Origin: Sphingomonas flavalba | GTDB taxonomy: Bacteria > Pseudomonadota > Alphaproteobacteria > Sphingomonadales > Sphingomonadaceae | DNA: 64,000 bases | Reading direction: 5' to 3' | Assembly: GCF_004796535.1 (NCBI RefSeq) | Contig: NZ_SPHY01000009.1 | Span: 1-64,000 of the forward strand | In this document: one piece after another, positions 2,321 through 27,649 of the stretch | Numbering within the stretch: the first letter of the stretch is position 1 | Layout of the letters: every line of letters starts with the position of its first letter | Position numbers and translations under genes: made by a program | The notes under the pieces: generated by a model | What the model was told of the DNA's origin: nothing | Seen by the model: only the letters and a program-made list of their open reading frames with translations | The model's database searches: none

Positions 2321-3184
2321 TCAGGCCGTGACGATGCGCGGCCGGGGCCGGGCCCGCATCGCGAAGCCGACCAGCCCGAAGCCGGCGATCAGCATCGCCC
2401 AGCTTGCCGGCTCTGGAACCGCCGCAGACGCCGAATAGCCGCTGATCTCGGCCTGCGAATGCGCGATGATGATGTCGCCGTTCAGCAACTGCGTGCCGAG
2501 CAGGAAGTTGTCGAACGAAGCATGGATCGCGTTGGTCGCGATGCCGAGGCTGGAAATGCCGTCGCCCCAGACCGTCTGTTCGTTCAGTACGATCCGTAGA
2601 CCGAGCAGATCGACCAGCACGGTGTTGGCCGCCGGGCTGGCGAACAGCCCGCCGCCGATACCGAGGGAGCCGAGCACCGACCCGCCTAACGCCGGTTGTT
2701 CGAGCACCGTCGACCCACCGACGCTTAGCCCGGCGCCGGCATCGACCCAGGCGCTGGACCGCACCGTTTTCGAATCGATCCCGGCGATCAGCGCCGGCGG
2801 CAACAGCAATGTATCGACGAATAGCCCGGCTGACAGGTCGGCGACCGTCGCGCTCGCGCTGCCGCGGGGCGTCGCCGGATAATCCGACCTGGCCGTCGCG
2901 GTGATGACGCCGCCATTCAGCTGCTCGCCGGCCGACAACAGCGGCGACGCGATCAGCGCCAACGACTGGTGCAGGGTCAGCAGGCTGTCGCTGACGTCAT
3001 ACGCGCCGGGCGCCGATCCGGACGCCGTCGCAACCGGCCCCAGCGATGCGCTCAGCGCCCCGACAACATTCAGGTTCGCCGACACGCCGTAGCTTGAACT
3101 GCTGATCGTCGCCGCCGGCGCCGCGGATGCCATCAGCATCGCCCCTACGGAAATTACGCAAGTCATAACACCTTGATTCTTCAT
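2321..3184 (-). CDS. PEP-CTERM sorting domain protein (choice-of-anchor P-like)
   Basis: Secreted protein of 287 aa. An N-terminal signal peptide (MKNQGVMTCVISVGAML, cleavage near APAA) precedes a Gly/Ala/Ser/Leu-rich body. The C-terminus is a PEP-CTERM anchor: PEPASWAMLIAGFGLVGF from about residue 257, then a basic tail. Such anchors are known to be processed by an exosortase (EpsH/XrtA), usually alongside exopolysaccharide or biofilm export; no exosortase gene is in the window. The body, with repeats like LNGGVITATARSD and LNGDIIIAHSQA, resembles choice-of-anchor P proteins, a tentative match. Start chosen at 3184 because GGAGGG lies 7 nt upstream; an in-frame upstream Met lacks one. Confidence 0.85.
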   Translation of the reverse strand: MKNQGVMTCVISVGAMLMASAAPAATISSSSYGVSANLNVVGALSASLGPVATASGSAPGAYDVSDSLLTLHQSLALIASPLLSAGEQLNGGVITATARSDYPATPRGSASATVADLSAGLFVDTLLLPPALIAGIDSKTVRSSAWVDAGAGLSVGGSTVLEQPALGGSVLGSLGIGGGLFASPAANTVLVDLLGLRIVLNEQTVWGDGISSLGIATNAIHASFDNFLLGTQLLNGDIIIAHSQAEISGYSASAAVPEPASWAMLIAGFGLVGFAMRARPRPRIVTA

Positions 3185-3390
3185 GATACCCTCCTGTTTC
3201 AGGCAGGGATCATCAAGCAATTGCCGTGCCGCATCAGGATATCAGCCAGGCATTCAAGTAAACGTCGTGGCCATCGTTAATGCCGCCGACACTATCTCTA
3301 ATATATATCAATTATTCATCACGTAATTCGCGCACCAAACTACGTATATTGCACATCGCGACTATCGCCGTGGCTCGGGGGCCGAAAGCG

Positions 3391-3837
3391 TTAATCCTCC
3401 ACGCGCATGCCGGGCGGCGTCTCCAACCACTGGAAGAATTCGAGCGTATAGCCGCCTGGGTCGCGAATCTTGAACTCAAGCGTGTCGCCCTCGCAGCCCC
3501 GTTGCAGGTGGCTCTCCACCCCGGCAACACCGGTGTCGACCAGGTGGCGGTGCCAGCGTTCCAGGTCGCGCGTCGCGATCGTCACCATCGCGCCTTTGTT
3601 GGCGCCGGCTATCGGCTGCTGGCTGCCCACTTCTCCGGAGACCAGCCCCAGATAGGCATGATCGATAATCCGGAAGATCGCCAACCACCCATAGTCGAGC
3701 ACCTTCTCGAAACCGATCGCCTGCTCGTACCAGCGGGCCGTGGCCGGTACATCGGCGTAGTAGAACAAGGTGATGACCCCGTCGACGCGGCAGGCCGCGC
3801 GCAGCGCCGTGACAGACAACGGTGGATGGGCCAACAA
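3391..3837 (-). CDS. VOC/glyoxalase-fold protein
   Basis: Small protein with one vicinal-oxygen-chelate (glyoxalase/bleomycin-resistance/extradiol dioxygenase) domain. The core starts GVITLFYYADVPATARWYEQ and ends with the typical DPGGYTLEFFQW strand. The reading frame is open far upstream but has no ATG before the domain. I chose the TTG at 3837 because AGGAG sits 9 nt upstream, giving 148 aa; the start is uncertain. It lies 97 bp after the MarR gene and is last in the minus-strand operon of the catabolic island. Substrate unknown. Confidence 0.75.
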   Translation of the reverse strand: MLAHPPLSVTALRAACRVDGVITLFYYADVPATARWYEQAIGFEKVLDYGWLAIFRIIDHAYLGLVSGEVGSQQPIAGANKGAMVTIATRDLERWHRHLVDTGVAGVESHLQRGCEGDTLEFKIRDPGGYTLEFFQWLETPPGMRVED

Positions 3838-3934
3838 TCCGCCGAACTCCTCCTGAGCGATCCGCCGCTCAGTTCCGTTCGGTATTAGAAAGCACAGCCC
3901 GCCGCAATCGCCGTTGTGAGGCGTGCGCGGCGCG

Positions 3935-4417
3935 TCAGTAATCGTCGCGGGTGATATTGTCTTCCAGCCGGGCGAGCAGGCCGCGCAGCGCCGCGATCTC
4001 CTTGACGGAAAAGCCTTCCATAGCGATCCGCTCATGGCGCCGCGCCGCCGGCAGGATCTTCTCGAACGCGTCGACCCCAGCTTCGGTCAGCACCACCTCG
4101 ATCATCCGCGAATCCGCCGTCGACGTCCGCCGATGCGCCCGCCCATCGTGCTCCAACTGGTCGATCACCCGGCTGACCGTCGACTGTTCCATCAGCGTGT
4201 GTTCGACGATCTTGCCGATGGTCAGCGTCCCGTGCGAGCGCAGCACGCTCAACACCCGCCATTGCGACGGGCTGACGCCGATCGCCTTCAGGCGGTTCTG
4301 CAGGCGCAGGTTCAGACGGTTGACGACCCGGTACAGCCGATAGGGCATGAATTCCTCGAGCCAGTCGTCGCCGATCTCCAGGTCATCCTTTGCCGCCTGC
4401 GCGCGCGCTTTGCTCAT
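3935..4417 (-). CDS. MarR-family transcriptional regulator
   Basis: Winged-helix regulator of 160 aa. The MarR core is clear: PYRLYRVVNRLNLRLQNRLK dimer helix, SPSQWRVLSVL, recognition region MEQSTVSRVIDQLEHDG, wing with RRTSTADSRMIEV, and a C-terminal dimerisation helix. MarR proteins usually repress neighbouring genes and release DNA on binding aromatic or organic ligands. Its place between the cyclodeaminase and glyoxalase-fold genes suggests control of the catabolic island. Start at 4417 has a GAGGA just upstream; an in-frame ATG at 4459 would add 14 residues. Confidence 0.9.
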   Translation of the reverse strand: MSKARAQAAKDDLEIGDDWLEEFMPYRLYRVVNRLNLRLQNRLKAIGVSPSQWRVLSVLRSHGTLTIGKIVEHTLMEQSTVSRVIDQLEHDGRAHRRTSTADSRMIEVVLTEAGVDAFEKILPAARRHERIAMEGFSVKEIAALRGLLARLEDNITRDDY

Positions 4418-23132: not shown

Positions 23133-23975
23133 TCAGGCGTCCGACTGCACTTCCGTCTCTGCGGCAGCCGCGGCGGGAACCTGCTCGTCCTCGGTGACCG
23201 GGGCAGCGACCGGCGCTTCCGGCGCGGCCAGCGCGGCTTCCGCCGGCGGCTCGTCGAACGCGCCAATGTCGACGCCCCGCGCCGCCTGGCCGCCCTGGTT
23301 GCCACGGGTCGCCGCGGTGGCGATCGCGTCGCAATACAGGCGGATCGCGCGGCTGGCATCGTCGTTCGCAGGGATCGGGAAGGCAATGCCGTCCGGGCTG
23401 ACGTTCGAATCGAGGACGGCGACGACCGGAATGCCCAGCGTGTTGGCTTCCTTGATCGCCAGCTCTTCCTTGTTGGCGTCGATGACGAACATCACGTCGG
23501 GAATGCCGCCCATGTCGCGGATGCCGCCCAGCGACAGCTCGAACTTGTCGCGCTCGCGGGTCAGCTGCAGCACTTCCTTCTTGGTCAGCCCGACGGTGTC
23601 GCCGGCCAGCTGCTCCTCGAGCGCCTTGTAGCGCTTGATCGAGTTACTGATCGTCTTCCAGTTGGTCAGCATGCCGCCCAGCCAGCGGTGGTTGACGTAA
23701 TGCTGTCCGGCCCGGCGCGCCGCCTCGGCGATCGGCTCCTGCGCCTGGCGCTTGGTGCCGACGAACAGCACCTTGCCGCCGGCGCCGACGGTCTGCGACA
23801 CGAAGTCGAGGGCGCGCGCGAACAGCGGCACCGTCTGCGACAGGTCGAGGATGTGGATGCCGTTGCGCTGGCCGAAGATGTAAGGCTTCATCTTCGGGTT
23901 CCAGCGATGCGTCTGGTGGCCGAAATGCGCGCCCGCTTCGAGCAACGCCTGCAGGGAGACGGTGGGAGCCGCCAT
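23133..23975 (-). CDS. rpsB: 30S ribosomal protein S2
   Basis: 280-aa S2, starting [20 protein letters not shown] with the conserved [20 protein letters not shown] stretch (cut here at [16 protein letters not shown]). The core ends near residue 235 and an Ala/Glu-rich acidic tail ([15 protein letters not shown]-like) adds about 40 residues, common in alphaproteobacteria. AGGAG precedes the ATG. It heads the minus-strand housekeeping run and has a structured leader. Confidence 0.98.
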
Positions 23976-24098: not shown

Positions 24099-24114
24099 GC
24101 GTAGCGGCACATGC

Positions 24115-24144
24115 CGTCGTCGGGTAGTGTCTCAGTTTGAAATT
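24115..24144 (+). repeat. Left target duplication and left terminal inverted repeat of the transposon
   Basis: Target copy CGTCGTCG (24115-24122) is repeated at 27532-27539. The inverted repeat at 24123-24144 starts GGTAGTGTCTCAG and matches 27510-27531 perfectly over 22 bp. The direct repeat could be read as 10 bp (CCGTCGTCGG, 24114-24123) if the tip is taken as GTAGTG. Confidence 0.92.
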
Positions 24145-24154
24145 TGATGCGCCA

Positions 24155-24182
24155 TTGGCGTTCTGGCCGCGCCTCCTATATG
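24155..24182 (+). promoter_or_regulatory. Candidate first promoter of the passenger operon
   Basis: TTGGCG (24155-24160), 16-bp spacer, TATATG (24177-24182). Directly after the -10 lies a perfect palindrome ATGCTT-N6-AAGCAT (24180-24197), followed by GGAGG (24199-24203). The palindrome could be an operator or a small hairpin just ahead of the ribosome site. Confidence 0.5.
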
Positions 24183-24210
24183 CTTAGCGGAAAGCATGGA
24201 GGTTGCGCAG

Positions 24211-24468
24211 ATGGCGACAATTCAGATTGATCCAGTGCCGATTCAATCCAAAGGTGGTTACCCCGTCACGATCACCGGAATAGACCCGACCGATCACGAC
24301 TGCCTTAAGGGCGGCATTGTTACGCCCGGCCAAGGTCTTGCGCCAGCCAGTTGGAATTTGAGCGGGATAATGCGTGGCGGCACAGATCAGTGCAATGTCG
24401 ACACGCGGGCTGATGAGTTCGCAGATCTTGCGGGCTTAGCTCACAAATTGGGAGCGCCCGGTGCCTAA
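24211..24468 (+). CDS. Unrecognised 85-aa passenger protein
   Basis: Small protein of no family I recognise: MATIQIDPVPIQSKGGYPV, then GIDPTDHDCLKGGIV, a middle with GIMRGGTDQCNVDTRADEF, and a short end. It has two cysteines and no signal peptide or membrane helix. Start at 24211 has GGAGG 7 nt upstream; an in-frame ATG at 24196 would add five residues but lacks a ribosome site. Its last 8 bases overlap the next gene, so it is translated as part of the passenger operon. Confidence 0.65.
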   Translation: MATIQIDPVPIQSKGGYPVTITGIDPTDHDCLKGGIVTPGQGLAPASWNLSGIMRGGTDQCNVDTRADEFADLAGLAHKLGAPGA

Positions 24469-24697
24469 AGGCCCCCGTGGAGAGAAGCGCCCCGCCGACG
24501 CTATTGGTCTCGCCGTGATGATCGGTAAGATTGCCACTGGCGAGATTGAGGACGAGCGCGACGAGAAGCTGTCCAGCGCCGCCGCCGAGTTGGGGCGCAA
24601 GGGCGGGAAGGCTCGCGCGGAGTCCATGACGCCGGAGCGGCGGGCGGAAATCGCGCGAAAAGCAGCCGAAAAGCGCTGGTCGAAAGATCACGGTTGA
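24461..24697 (+). CDS. KGG-motif basic small protein (nucleic-acid-binding candidate)
   Basis: 78-aa Lys/Arg/Glu/Ala-rich protein. Residues about 45-75 read AELGRKGGKARAESMTPERR followed by AEIARKAAEKRW, the GGKARA...EIARKAAxxRW pattern shared by many small bacterial KGG-type (stress or histone-like) proteins. A DNA- or RNA-binding role is likely from charge but unproven. The start is GTG, overlapping the previous stop by 8 nt. The N-terminal half is acidic to mixed and carries AIGLAVMIGKIATGEI. Confidence 0.65.
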   Translation: MPKGPRGEKRPADAIGLAVMIGKIATGEIEDERDEKLSSAAAELGRKGGKARAESMTPERRAEIARKAAEKRWSKDHG

Positions 24698-24722
24698 CAA
24701 ATCTGAACAGAATGCCATTCTG
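24694..24722 (+). promoter_or_regulatory. Candidate internal promoter with perfect palindromic operator
   Basis: TTGACA (24694-24699) is a consensus -35. A -10-like CATTCT follows after 16 bp (24716-24721). Overlapping it is the perfect palindrome CAGAAT-GCC-ATTCTG (24708-24722). It lies just before the ~217-aa gene and the XRE-ImmA/IrrE gene, so autorepression by that HTH protein is a straightforward inference. Confidence 0.55.
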
Positions 24723-24756
24723 GTTGCGCGGCGCTCACAGCATCCGGAACCAGCCG

Positions 24757-25410
24757 ATGAATCCCGTCAATCCTCGCCAGTTCGTCGATGACCAATTCCC
24801 CTCGGAGTTTCGTCCGCTGGTGGCGACCACGCTGAAAACGGCATACCGCACGGCTGATCTCTGGATCGCCAGCGAACCCGCATTCCAGATACCGACCGTG
24901 CAGTGGAACCGTGGTCGCCTTGTCTCGTGGGCCGTTGATTTCGGCGTGTTCAAGTTGGTGGAAAGCGGGGCGCTTCCTTTCGACTATTCTTGGGAGTTTT
25001 TTGCTCGTCCGACCGGACGCTATCTTGCGATCCGTCCGAGCCATTCGGTCGTGACGATCAGCCAGGTTGTGGATCCGACGAAGCAGCCCCGTAATGTGGT
25101 CTTCCGCGCCAACGCCCGGGTCAGCAACTCGCCCTTTTTCAATCTGCCGGAGTTTGAGGAAGAAGGCAGGATCGATGGCCTCCCTCATATCCTTCTGACG
25201 CACGGGCATCAGTCGCTCTCGTTTTCGCATCTGTGCATACCCGATCCCAAACATCAGAACGGCTATCGTTATCGGACTAAAAATCTGCTGGAGATGCCTC
25301 ACGAGATCAAGGCGGACGGCCCGCCACCGGAAGACACCGATACCGACTTCGAGAACCTGGGGCTCTTGAAGGAGGACATCGCGAAATGGAAGAAGGATCA
25401 TGGCGGCTAA
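24757..25410 (+). CDS. Unrecognised ~217-aa partner of the XRE-ImmA/IrrE protein
   Basis: Soluble protein with no family I recognise. It starts MNPVNPRQFVDDQFPSEFR; other features are VQWNRGRLVSWAVDFGVFKL, a RPTGRYLAIRPSHSVVTISQ strand-rich middle, LPHILLTHGHQSLSFSHLCI and an acidic PPPEDTDTDFENLG end. The HGHQSLSFSHL block has three histidines that might bind metal. The ATG at 24757 lies downstream of the candidate internal promoter; in-frame TTG 24694 (overlapping the previous stop) would give 238 aa. It overlaps the next gene by 11 nt. Toxin, protease substrate or regulator partner are all possible. Confidence 0.7.
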   Translation: MNPVNPRQFVDDQFPSEFRPLVATTLKTAYRTADLWIASEPAFQIPTVQWNRGRLVSWAVDFGVFKLVESGALPFDYSWEFFARPTGRYLAIRPSHSVVTISQVVDPTKQPRNVVFRANARVSNSPFFNLPEFEEEGRIDGLPHILLTHGHQSLSFSHLCIPDPKHQNGYRYRTKNLLEMPHEIKADGPPPEDTDTDFENLGLLKEDIAKWKKDHGG

Positions 25411-26593
25411 CGACAACATTATTCAGTTCTCGAAAGCCGCCCGCGATGAGAGTCTAGGGCGGCTTTTGATTCCCGAGCGTCTGTTGGAAGCGCGGCTTAC
25501 CAAGCGCTGGAACCAATCCGAACTCGCGAACGCCGTTGGCGTCACGAGACAGTCGATCTCAACCTATGAAATGGGGACTAAGAAGCCAGAACCCACCACC
25601 ATGGCAGCGATAGCACGCGAGCTGGAGCAGCCCATTAGCTTCTTCACTCGCGGTGATTTGCCCACCTTCGGGCCAGCAAGCGCGAACTTTTATCGGAAAG
25701 TCGGCGCTGACACGAAGAGACGAAATTCGGCCTGCGCAGTGTATGCCGATTGGCTCGCTCAGACGGCCTACGCCTTCGATGCCTTTGTGAATTACCCTGA
25801 ACTCAATCTGCCGAGTTTTGAGCCTCACGAGACGGGCACCAACCGTTATTCGGAAGAAGAGATCGAGCAGATCGCCGAGACGGTTCGCGATCATTTTGGT
25901 TTAGGTCTCGGGCCGATTTCCAATGTCGTCCGGTTGCTCGAATCCAAAGGCATCATTGTTTGCAGAGTCGTAATTCCAGATGAAAAGATCGAAGCCTTCT
26001 CGTTTTGGCGGGGCGATCGGGCATTTGTTTTCTTGGCGTCCGATAAGGATAGCGCCGCCAGGGCAAGGCTAGATGCAGCTCACGAGTTGGGGCATTTGTG
26101 TATGCACCAATGGGTGGGTGCGGAAGAAATCGAAGACGAGAAGACGTTGAAAGAAATTGAAAAGGAGGCCGATCGATTTGCAGCCGCCTTTCTATTGCCC
26201 AGAAAGTCATTCCCGAACGAGATTTATTCCCCACGCTTGCTGGCATTTGTCGATCTTAAGCAAAGGTGGAAGGTTTCGATAGCGGCGATGGTTTATCGCT
26301 GTAAATCATTGGGTATATTTGACGAGCAGCAGGTAACGAACCTCTACAAGCAGATTTCCGCGAGGAAGTGGCGCAAGCAGGAGCCGTTGGACGGCCCCGA
26401 TGGCCTGCCTTTGGAACAACCGCTTCTGCTCACAAGAATCGCTGAAATGGTTCTGATGGCCGGAAGGATCAAACGAGACGAGTTGAAGGCAGCGCTGGGT
26501 TTCTCGTCCAGCGTTATAGAGAAGCTTGTCGGGCTCCCGCCCGGCGCGCTCGACAACGACGATCACGTGGAGATTGCCCCCTCTCTAAAGTGA
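25400..26593 (+). CDS. XRE-HTH / ImmA-IrrE family metallopeptidase
   Basis: 397-aa two-domain regulator. Residues about 25-80 form an XRE helix-turn-helix ([18 protein letters not shown], then [11 protein letters not shown]). Residues about 160-300 are a COG2856 ImmA/IrrE zinc peptidase: H228-E-L-G-H232 in [12 protein letters not shown] and a downstream glutamate E256 in [16 protein letters not shown]-terminal helical region (320-397) follows. Relatives act as site-specific proteases on phage or stress repressors (ImmA, IrrE) or as antitoxin-like partners in toxin-antitoxin loci. AAGGA precedes the ATG. Its TGA overlaps a possible GTG start of the transposase. Confidence 0.9.
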
Positions 26594-26637
26594 AATACAT
26601 GCTTGACGCTAAGTATAAAAGTTCATATCCAATGGGT

Positions 26638-27522
26638 ATGAACAAGCTCCCTCTCGCCAAGCGCACTCAAATCCTCGCCATGCTATGCGAAGGGTCGTCC
26701 ATGCGCTCGATCAGCCGCGTTGCGGACGTGTCGATCAACACGGTGTCGAAGCTACTGGTTGAAGCGGGCGAGGCTTGCCTGACCCTCCACGACGAAACCG
26801 TGCGCAACGTGAAGGCGTCGCGCATCCAGTGCGACGAGATTTGGTCGTTCTGCCACGCCAAGCAAAAGAACGTCGCGACCGCCAAGGCCGCACCGGAAGG
26901 TGCTGGCGACGTGTGGACGTGGACCGCGATCGACGCGGAGACAAAGCTGATCGTTTCGTATTTCGTCGGCGATCGTTCGGGCGAAAGCGCGATCATCCTC
27001 ATGGACGATCTTCGCGATCGCCTCGCCAACCGGGTCCAGCTCACCACGGATGGCCACAAGGCTTATCTGGAGGCCGTGGAGGGCGCGTTCGGTGCAGACG
27101 TGGATTATGCCCAGCTTGTGAAGCTATACGGCCCCACGGTCAGCGCACCGGGCCGCTACAGCCCCGCTGAATGCACCGGGATCAAGAAAATCCGTCGCGA
27201 GGGCAATCCCGATATCGCACACGTCTCGACCAGCTATGTCGAGCGCCAGAACCTCACCATGCGCATGTCCATGCGCCGCTTCACCCGGCTTACGAACGGC
27301 TTCTCAAAGAAGCTCGACAACCATATCCACGCGCTGGCGCTGTATTTCGCCTTCTATAATTTCTGCCGCATCCATAAGACGCTGCGCATGTCGCCAGCCA
27401 TGGCAGCGGGAATCACCGATCGGCTATGGTCGCTGGAGGATATTATCGCGCAAATCGACGCGGCGGCTCCGGCACCGAAAAAGCGCGGCCCCTATAAAAA
27501 GCGGGAAGCAATTTCAAACTGA
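26638..27522 (+). CDS. IS1-family-like DDE transposase
   Basis: 294-aa single-frame transposase. N-terminal HTH ([19 protein letters not shown]) precedes a DDE core: first Asp in QCDEIWSF, second in TTDGHKAY, and the Glu in [14 protein letters not shown], followed by [17 protein letters not shown]. The basic end [10 protein letters not shown] is followed by a stop codon inside the right inverted repeat. Start set at MNKLPLAKR (26638); ATG 26632 and GTG 26590 (overlapping the upstream stop as GTGA) are in frame. The IS1 label rests on recalled resemblance and the 8-bp duplication. Confidence 0.88.
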
Positions 27523-27539
27523 GACACTACCCGTCGTCG
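27510..27539 (+). repeat. Right terminal inverted repeat and right target duplication
   Basis: 27510-27531 is the exact reverse complement of 24123-24144 and contains the transposase stop codon. The target copy CGTCGTCG follows at 27532-27539. Removing the element and one copy would restore an uninterrupted rpsB-rplY intergenic region. Confidence 0.92.
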
Positions 27540-27546
27540 GCTTCCC

Positions 27547-27575
27547 TTGCATTTGCGCGGGCTGCCCGCTATGCG
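27547..27575 (+). promoter_or_regulatory. Candidate rplY promoter
   Basis: TTGCAT (27547-27552), 17-bp spacer, TATGCG (27570-27575), 75 bp before the rplY start. The -35 context CTTGCATTTGCG is identical to that of the diverging rpsB promoter. Confidence 0.5.
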
Positions 27576-27649
27576 CCCGCCATCCGCGCCATGGTCATCC
27601 CTGGAGGCATGGCGGGATTGTTCAAACCCAAGCGAATTGGAGACATGCG

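Follow-up and report, generated by a model that had tools for sequence, protein, structure and literature searches.

The window, by which we mean the whole 64,000-nucleotide stretch of Sphingomonas flavalba DNA analysed here, carries a transposon whose passengers include two overlapping genes, and directly upstream of those genes lies a likely promoter. The features that the argument needs are these.

24123-27531, no strand assigned: IS1-like transposon of 3,409 bp, defined by its inverted ends and target duplication.
24461-24697, + strand: orf78, a 78-aa ORF and companion gene of the transposon family, with relatives in loci L007, L008 and L012.
24692-24699, + strand: candidate half-site 1, GGTTGACA, over the -35 hexamer; its GTTGAC is invariant in 9/9 loci and in 4/4 new loci.
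24708-24722, no strand assigned: palindrome CAGAATGCCATTCTG, absent from relatives.
24716-24721, + strand: probable -10 hexamer CATTCT, weak, with a 16-bp spacer, placed by comparing its position with the -10-like hexamers of relatives.
24722-24727, + strand: candidate half-site 2, GGTTGC, exactly 30 bp after half-site 1; its GTTG is invariant in 9/9 loci.
24757-25410, + strand: RmrT toxin, 217 aa, matching the PADLOC model PDLC03938 RmrT at E 2.1e-91 (scanned as the ORF 24694-25410).
25400-26593, + strand: RmrA antitoxin, 397 aa, a probable autorepressor, matching the PADLOC model PDLC03952 RmrA at E 2.2e-186.
26590-27522, + strand: IS1-like transposase, 310 aa, matching Pfam DDE_Tnp_IS1 at E 5.9e-7 (30.3 bits vs 24.1).

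Judged by sequence, the gene pair is a RosmerTA toxin-antitoxin module, and the identity of its genes is a computed result. The toxin fits the RmrT model. The antitoxin, which joins an XRE-type helix-turn-helix (Pfam HTH_3, 1.3e-9) to an M78/ImmA-type peptidase domain (Peptidase_M78, 7.9e-21), fits the RmrA model and has an intact HExxH motif, with H228, E229 and H232 invariant across 9 sequences, the window's included. The sequence-only reading of this DNA had proposed a two-gene module with an XRE regulator as its second gene, and the HTH_3 match together with the two PADLOC models bears it out. The genes overlap by 11 bp. We place the start of RmrT at the ATG at 24757, where similarity to locus L003 begins. 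RmrT has no match in Pfam or NCBIfam, a search of solved structures by sequence returned only antibody chains at E above 1, and the AlphaFold models are too poor for use (mean pLDDT 33.7 for RmrT and 38.7 for RmrA). Against NF052239, the NCBIfam equivalog for the spr1629 antitoxin, RmrA scores 194.3 bits, below the cut-off of 335. Toxins of the window's kind are rare; besides the window's own genome, RmrT was found in 2 of 396 genomes searched from the order and 2 of 385 searched from the class.

The ends of the transposon are also computed rather than assumed. An identical 22-bp terminal inverted repeat, GGTAGTGTCTCAGTTTGAAATT, stands at both ends and an 8-bp target duplication, CGTCGTCG, flanks the element on both sides, so the earlier claim that the module sits inside a transposon was right. 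Target duplications in the IS1 family are short, 8-9 bp. Against the NCBIfam model transpos_IS1 the transposase scores 72.5 bits, under the cut-off of 100, and for this reason we call the element IS1-like. The transposase domain, both inverted ends and the 8-bp duplication are seen together in the window, in L007 and in L008. There is no second copy of the transposase in the window's own genome. The element (flanks 24113-24122 and 27532-27541) lies between what we take to be an rpsB-like gene (23133-23975, - strand) and a ribosomal L25-like gene (from 27651).

This element and its relatives form a family in which a small gene of 76-79 aa close to the left end (orf78 in the window) is constant and the cargo varies. 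The ends of the family read GGTAGTGTCTCAGTTTGAA, L008 having one mismatch at its right end; only the left end was seen in L012, and the right end of L081 has 3 mismatches. The element on a Hoeflea plasmid (L007 1717-5940) is 4,224 bp long with the 8-bp duplication GATGATTG, and its genes run orf78-RmrT-RmrA-transposase, followed by two more ORFs. The element on an Acidiphilium plasmid (L008 2305-4938) is 2,634 bp long with the 8-bp duplication AAGCCGAG, and holds orf78 and the transposase with a different cargo, a ClpP-like protease of the SDH type. The cargo is RosmerTA in the window, L007 and L012, and the antitoxin alone in L081. Between the left end and orf78 the window has a 90-aa ORF (24196-24468) without a family match in Pfam, NCBIfam or PADLOC; L007, L008 and L012 have different small ORFs at this place. 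The TGA stop codon of orf78 is overlapped by TTGACA, and the same arrangement of a -35 over the orf78 stop can be read in the sequences of L007 and L012.

It had been claimed that a consensus promoter precedes the module and that a palindrome of the form CAGAAT-N3-ATTCTG, covering the -10 region, is the operator of the regulator. The -35 hexamer TTGACA is indeed present and exact at 24694-24699 (+). The rest of the promoter is less than consensus: a 17-bp spacer gives the -10 hexamer ATTCTG, with 1 of 6 consensus matches by our own count, a 16-bp spacer gives CATTCT, with 3 of 6. Nor does 24100-27600 yield any promoter in a scan for the sigma-70 consensus. The palindrome is there too, perfect and over the -10 region, and its geometry is in fact 7-N1-7. 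Its pattern has 1 exact occurrence in the window's own genome and 1 further place with 1 mismatch. Palindromes of this size are not scarce, however. In the 64-kb window there are 38 perfect palindromes of the 6-N3-6 form and 8 of the 7-N1-7 form, so that one more beside a gene is no strong signal alone; about 0.04 of the 6-N3-6 kind are expected in any 60 bp.

Conservation is what removes the palindrome as a conserved operator, and a lack of it in relatives is the refuting outcome that the sequence-only reading had itself named. In register, the 8 relatives keep 1, 1, 1, 1, 2, 3, 3 and 4 of its 7 pairs, and the six loci gathered later likewise keep just 1-4 of 7. Even L003, whose RmrA is 73% identical to the window's and has a nearly equal recognition helix, is missing it upstream. 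This absence from relatives is a direct result of the alignment. Across 105 loci, the window included, short palindromes upstream of RmrT are in slight excess over shuffles: the 6-N3-6 kind in 9 of 105 (shuffles 4.3, sd 1.8, maximum 10) and the 7-N1-7 kind in 4 of 105 (shuffles 1.4, sd 1.1, maximum 5). The sequence-only reading spotted a likely promoter of a real two-gene module and took the wrong feature for its operator. The case shows how a palindrome in a lone sequence can lead astray where an alignment would not.

What the relatives do keep is a direct repeat. We gathered nine loci by RmrT similarity (the window, L003, L005, L006, L007, L009, L010, L011 and L012; RmrT identity to the window 35-62%), omitting three of four Zymomonas plasmid records as near-copies, plus a Zymomonas record from another search. 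All nine, the window included, carry GTTGAC-N24-GTTG, a direct repeat with a period of exactly 30 bp. With TTGAC as the anchor of the alignment, 9/9 agree in the G that precedes it, in the C at +21 and in the GTTG that spans +29 to +32. In 20,000 shuffles of the stretch from +6 to +59 the longest run of invariant columns was 1, vs 4 observed. The second copy adjoins the transcription start expected near 24728. Outside the boxes pairwise identity averages 0.33 and reaches 0.50 at most among the nine loci, so the boxes are not remnants of a recent shared ancestor. Measured from the TTG, the toxin start lies between 61 and 81 bp away in the six loci whose start codon was used; because this distance varies by at least 20 bp, we count the boxes as part of the promoter rather than of the leader. 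Toxin starts are less certain in L006, L011 and L012, where they were taken at the protein match and in-frame start codons lie further up (9 or 33 bp in L006, 3 bp in L011, 15 or 54 bp in L012). As far as the aligned sequences go, the control signal that has been conserved is not the palindrome but two direct repeats spaced 30 bases apart, and we predict that this pair is the operator.

The same signal appears in new loci. We scanned viral contigs with the RmrA alignment and used the best 80 of 265 relatives. The four closest of these 80 (L077-L080) belong to the window's subfamily, are toxin-first and all have GTTGAC-N24-GTTG; among the other 71 toxin-first viral loci of the best 80 it occurs only in the more distant L097. 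A viral scan with RmrT alone gave 0 relatives. Starting from the pattern itself, a scan of viral contigs gave 6 stretches, none with RmrT or RmrA beside it at E up to 0.1, and in the window's own genome the pattern has 16 occurrences vs 11 for a control, no excess worth following, so we dropped the idea that these copies form a regulon there. The motif GTTGAC-N24-GTTG alone is not specific.

A fifth close viral relative, L081, is of another kind. It keeps orf78 and the transposase, and most of its toxin gene is deleted. A short N-terminal piece of RmrT stands in frame with RmrA (2878-4152) and the promoter repeats are kept: in the fused ORF, residues 6-33 match the N-terminal end of the toxin (E 1e-5; 54% to L080), and the RmrA match, which begins at RmrA residue 15, covers residues 42-424. 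The promoter reads CTTGAC and CTTG in the same 30-bp register, one base being altered alike in both copies. Orphaned in this way, the antitoxin might shield its host against related modules.

We then asked how far the spacing holds across the family, scoring the region in front of the toxin gene by its best direct match of 9 letters at each offset of 12-60 bp (49 tested). In the 20 first-look loci offset 30 came top, narrowly, with 1 of 400 shuffles reaching its value. Offset 31 came top in 13 plasmid loci gathered after the idea had arisen, with z 3.2 over offsets and none of 400 shuffles reaching its value. Among the 63 viral loci that were non-redundant it led again (z 3.95), with 30 next (z 2.35); leaving out the window's subfamily kept 31 in the lead (z 4.39) and put 30 third (z 1.66), behind 12. 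Of 105 non-redundant loci, 29 repeat 8 or more of the 9 letters at an offset of 30 or 31 bp, vs a mean of 4.6 and a maximum of 10 in shuffles, and the best pair of adjacent offsets without 30 or 31 is found in 8 of 105. The remaining 76 of 105 have no strong repeat at 30 or 31 bp. The 30/31-bp geometry is therefore recurrent, not universal. One subfamily (L034, L035, L036 and L052) has instead an inverted repeat, ATGTTAA...TTAACAT, around the promoter.

The makeup of these wider sets should be kept in mind. The plasmid searches contributed 23 loci taken from 60 RmrA plasmid matches listed out of 344 records, and the Hoeflea, Roseomonas and one of the Zymomonas plasmid records were already among the loci. 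L014, a weak RmrT match, was placed in the wider set, and L020, whose toxin is annotated with a start far upstream, was excluded for that reason. From a batch of 17 loci, 3 were already in the nine-locus set, 10 were used (L032 and L037 among them with a stop inside the RmrA match) and 4 had no usable toxin-first ORF (L038 and L041-L043). By our criterion a toxin-first ORF was present in 75 of the 80 viral loci (L081, L088, L089, L148 and L152 were omitted), and 63 remained after near-duplicates and short ends were removed. Start codons in the wider sets are annotated or first-start guesses, which blurs these sets.

The half-site itself differs between RmrA subfamilies while the 30/31-bp spacing recurs, and the difference can be compared with the protein. 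In a hand-picked set of 28 loci, the third residue of the aligned recognition helix is Gln in 19, and every one of these 19 has a TTG core in its listed half-site; of the 9 lacking this Gln, 8 show no TTG core in the listed orientation; some of the non-TTG half-sites carry TTGC on the other strand. These 28 leave out L095, L116, L127, L130, L138 and most of the nine-locus set, and they include L014, L017, L031, L048 and L081, which have fewer than 8 of 9 letters or lie outside the scan. The correspondence of helix and half-site would fit RmrA as the binding protein, and we treat it as a lead, not a test.

We think it likely that this site is the promoter-operator of the transposon-borne RosmerTA and that RmrA represses its own operon through tandem half-sites. 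The conservation of the half-sites and their spacing are computed; that RmrA is the binder, that its binding represses, and the order of events at release are what we infer from them. Polymerase would use TTGACA as the -35 together with the weak -10 immediately upstream of 24722. The product of the second gene, RmrA, would bind the two direct GTTG-core half-sites; their spacing of 30 bp, about three helical turns, would put both on the same side of the helix, the first over the -35 and the second at the transcription start. Bound RmrA would shut polymerase out and so limit its own synthesis and that of the toxin, and upon loss of RmrA transcription would rise and RmrT would be freed. As for RosmerTA more widely, we lean slightly towards the view that 30/31-bp direct half-sites bracket the promoter and track the RmrA helix, making the antitoxin a tandem, same-face autorepressor and not a palindrome-binding dimer. 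Against RmrA acting through tandem half-sites, in the window as in the family, stand the 76 of 105 loci without a strong repeat, the subfamily with an inverted repeat, the low specificity of the motif by itself and the usual binding of XRE dimers to palindromes.

The idea that the window's palindrome is the RmrA operator we now regard as very improbable. It draws on the perfection of the palindrome, its position over the -10 region and the slight over-representation of such palindromes upstream of RmrT; its absence from 8/8 relatives, L003 among them, and from 6/6 later loci speaks against it, as does the commonness of the 6-N3-6 kind in the window. We also think it rather unlikely that the second GTTG is a host-factor site or a promoter element read by polymerase, with RmrA not acting there. 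The second GTTG does adjoin the expected start, where polymerase contacts DNA, and the -35 alone partly accounts for the conservation of the first GTTGAC. Yet such an account has to face the shift of the repeat sequence between RmrA subfamilies with its spacing recurring, and the like alteration of both copies in L081.

A different question is whether RmrA binds by itself or whether only the RmrT-RmrA complex binds the repeat, so that repression follows the toxin-antitoxin ratio. Co-repression overlaps our preferred reading, having the same site and another binder. It is usual in type II modules, and the 11-bp gene overlap fits coupled synthesis. L081, however, has lost most of the toxin and kept both the promoter repeats and RmrA, which suggests that the toxin may be dispensable, in a single case. 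We give co-repression a minor share of our belief. A fixed 30/31-bp direct-repeat operator, if true, would give a sequence handle with which to find and test RosmerTA promoters, and would tie an unusual HTH-peptidase antitoxin to a means of sensing the loss of RmrA.

RosmerTA modules are described as phage-defence toxin-antitoxin modules in PMC10440598, where the RosmerTA of Gordonia phage Kita is alike in setting a toxin beside an antitoxin with a helix-turn-helix and an ImmA/M78-type peptidase, and where the Kita toxin is said to depolarise membranes. In the window the toxin gene comes first, and the proteins match the PADLOC RmrT and RmrA models. The RipAB pair (Spr1630/Spr1629) of Streptococcus pneumoniae is a Rosmer-type pair in one operon; according to PMC12795458 its toxin targets the sliding clamp, and the paper does not settle whether the operon is autoregulated. 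The window's RmrA is sub-threshold to the spr1629 antitoxin model, of the same broad kind and, by the NCBIfam cut-off, not an equivalog. The word "operator" does not occur in the main text of PMC10440598, and we found no description of a RosmerTA operator in the portions of the open-licence literature consulted, including PMC10440598, PMC12322248, PMC4257102 and PMC12421847. A search of open-licence literature for IS1 elements with toxin-antitoxin passengers gave nothing relevant.

The element resembles the IS1 family in its DDE_Tnp_IS1 transposase, its inverted ends and its 8-bp target duplication, and differs from it in having passenger genes and a 310-aa transposase under the NCBIfam cut-off. 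The RosmerTA module itself is of a known kind; it is the 30/31-bp direct-repeat geometry that we believe is worth an experiment. The 434 repressor binds palindromic operators. A variant of it (dh434, 1sq8) is the only solved structure that a sequence search with RmrA gave at E up to 0.01, and the match (E 0.0078) takes in the helix-turn-helix alone. Unlike the palindromic operators of 434, the conserved sites here are direct repeats 30 bp apart.
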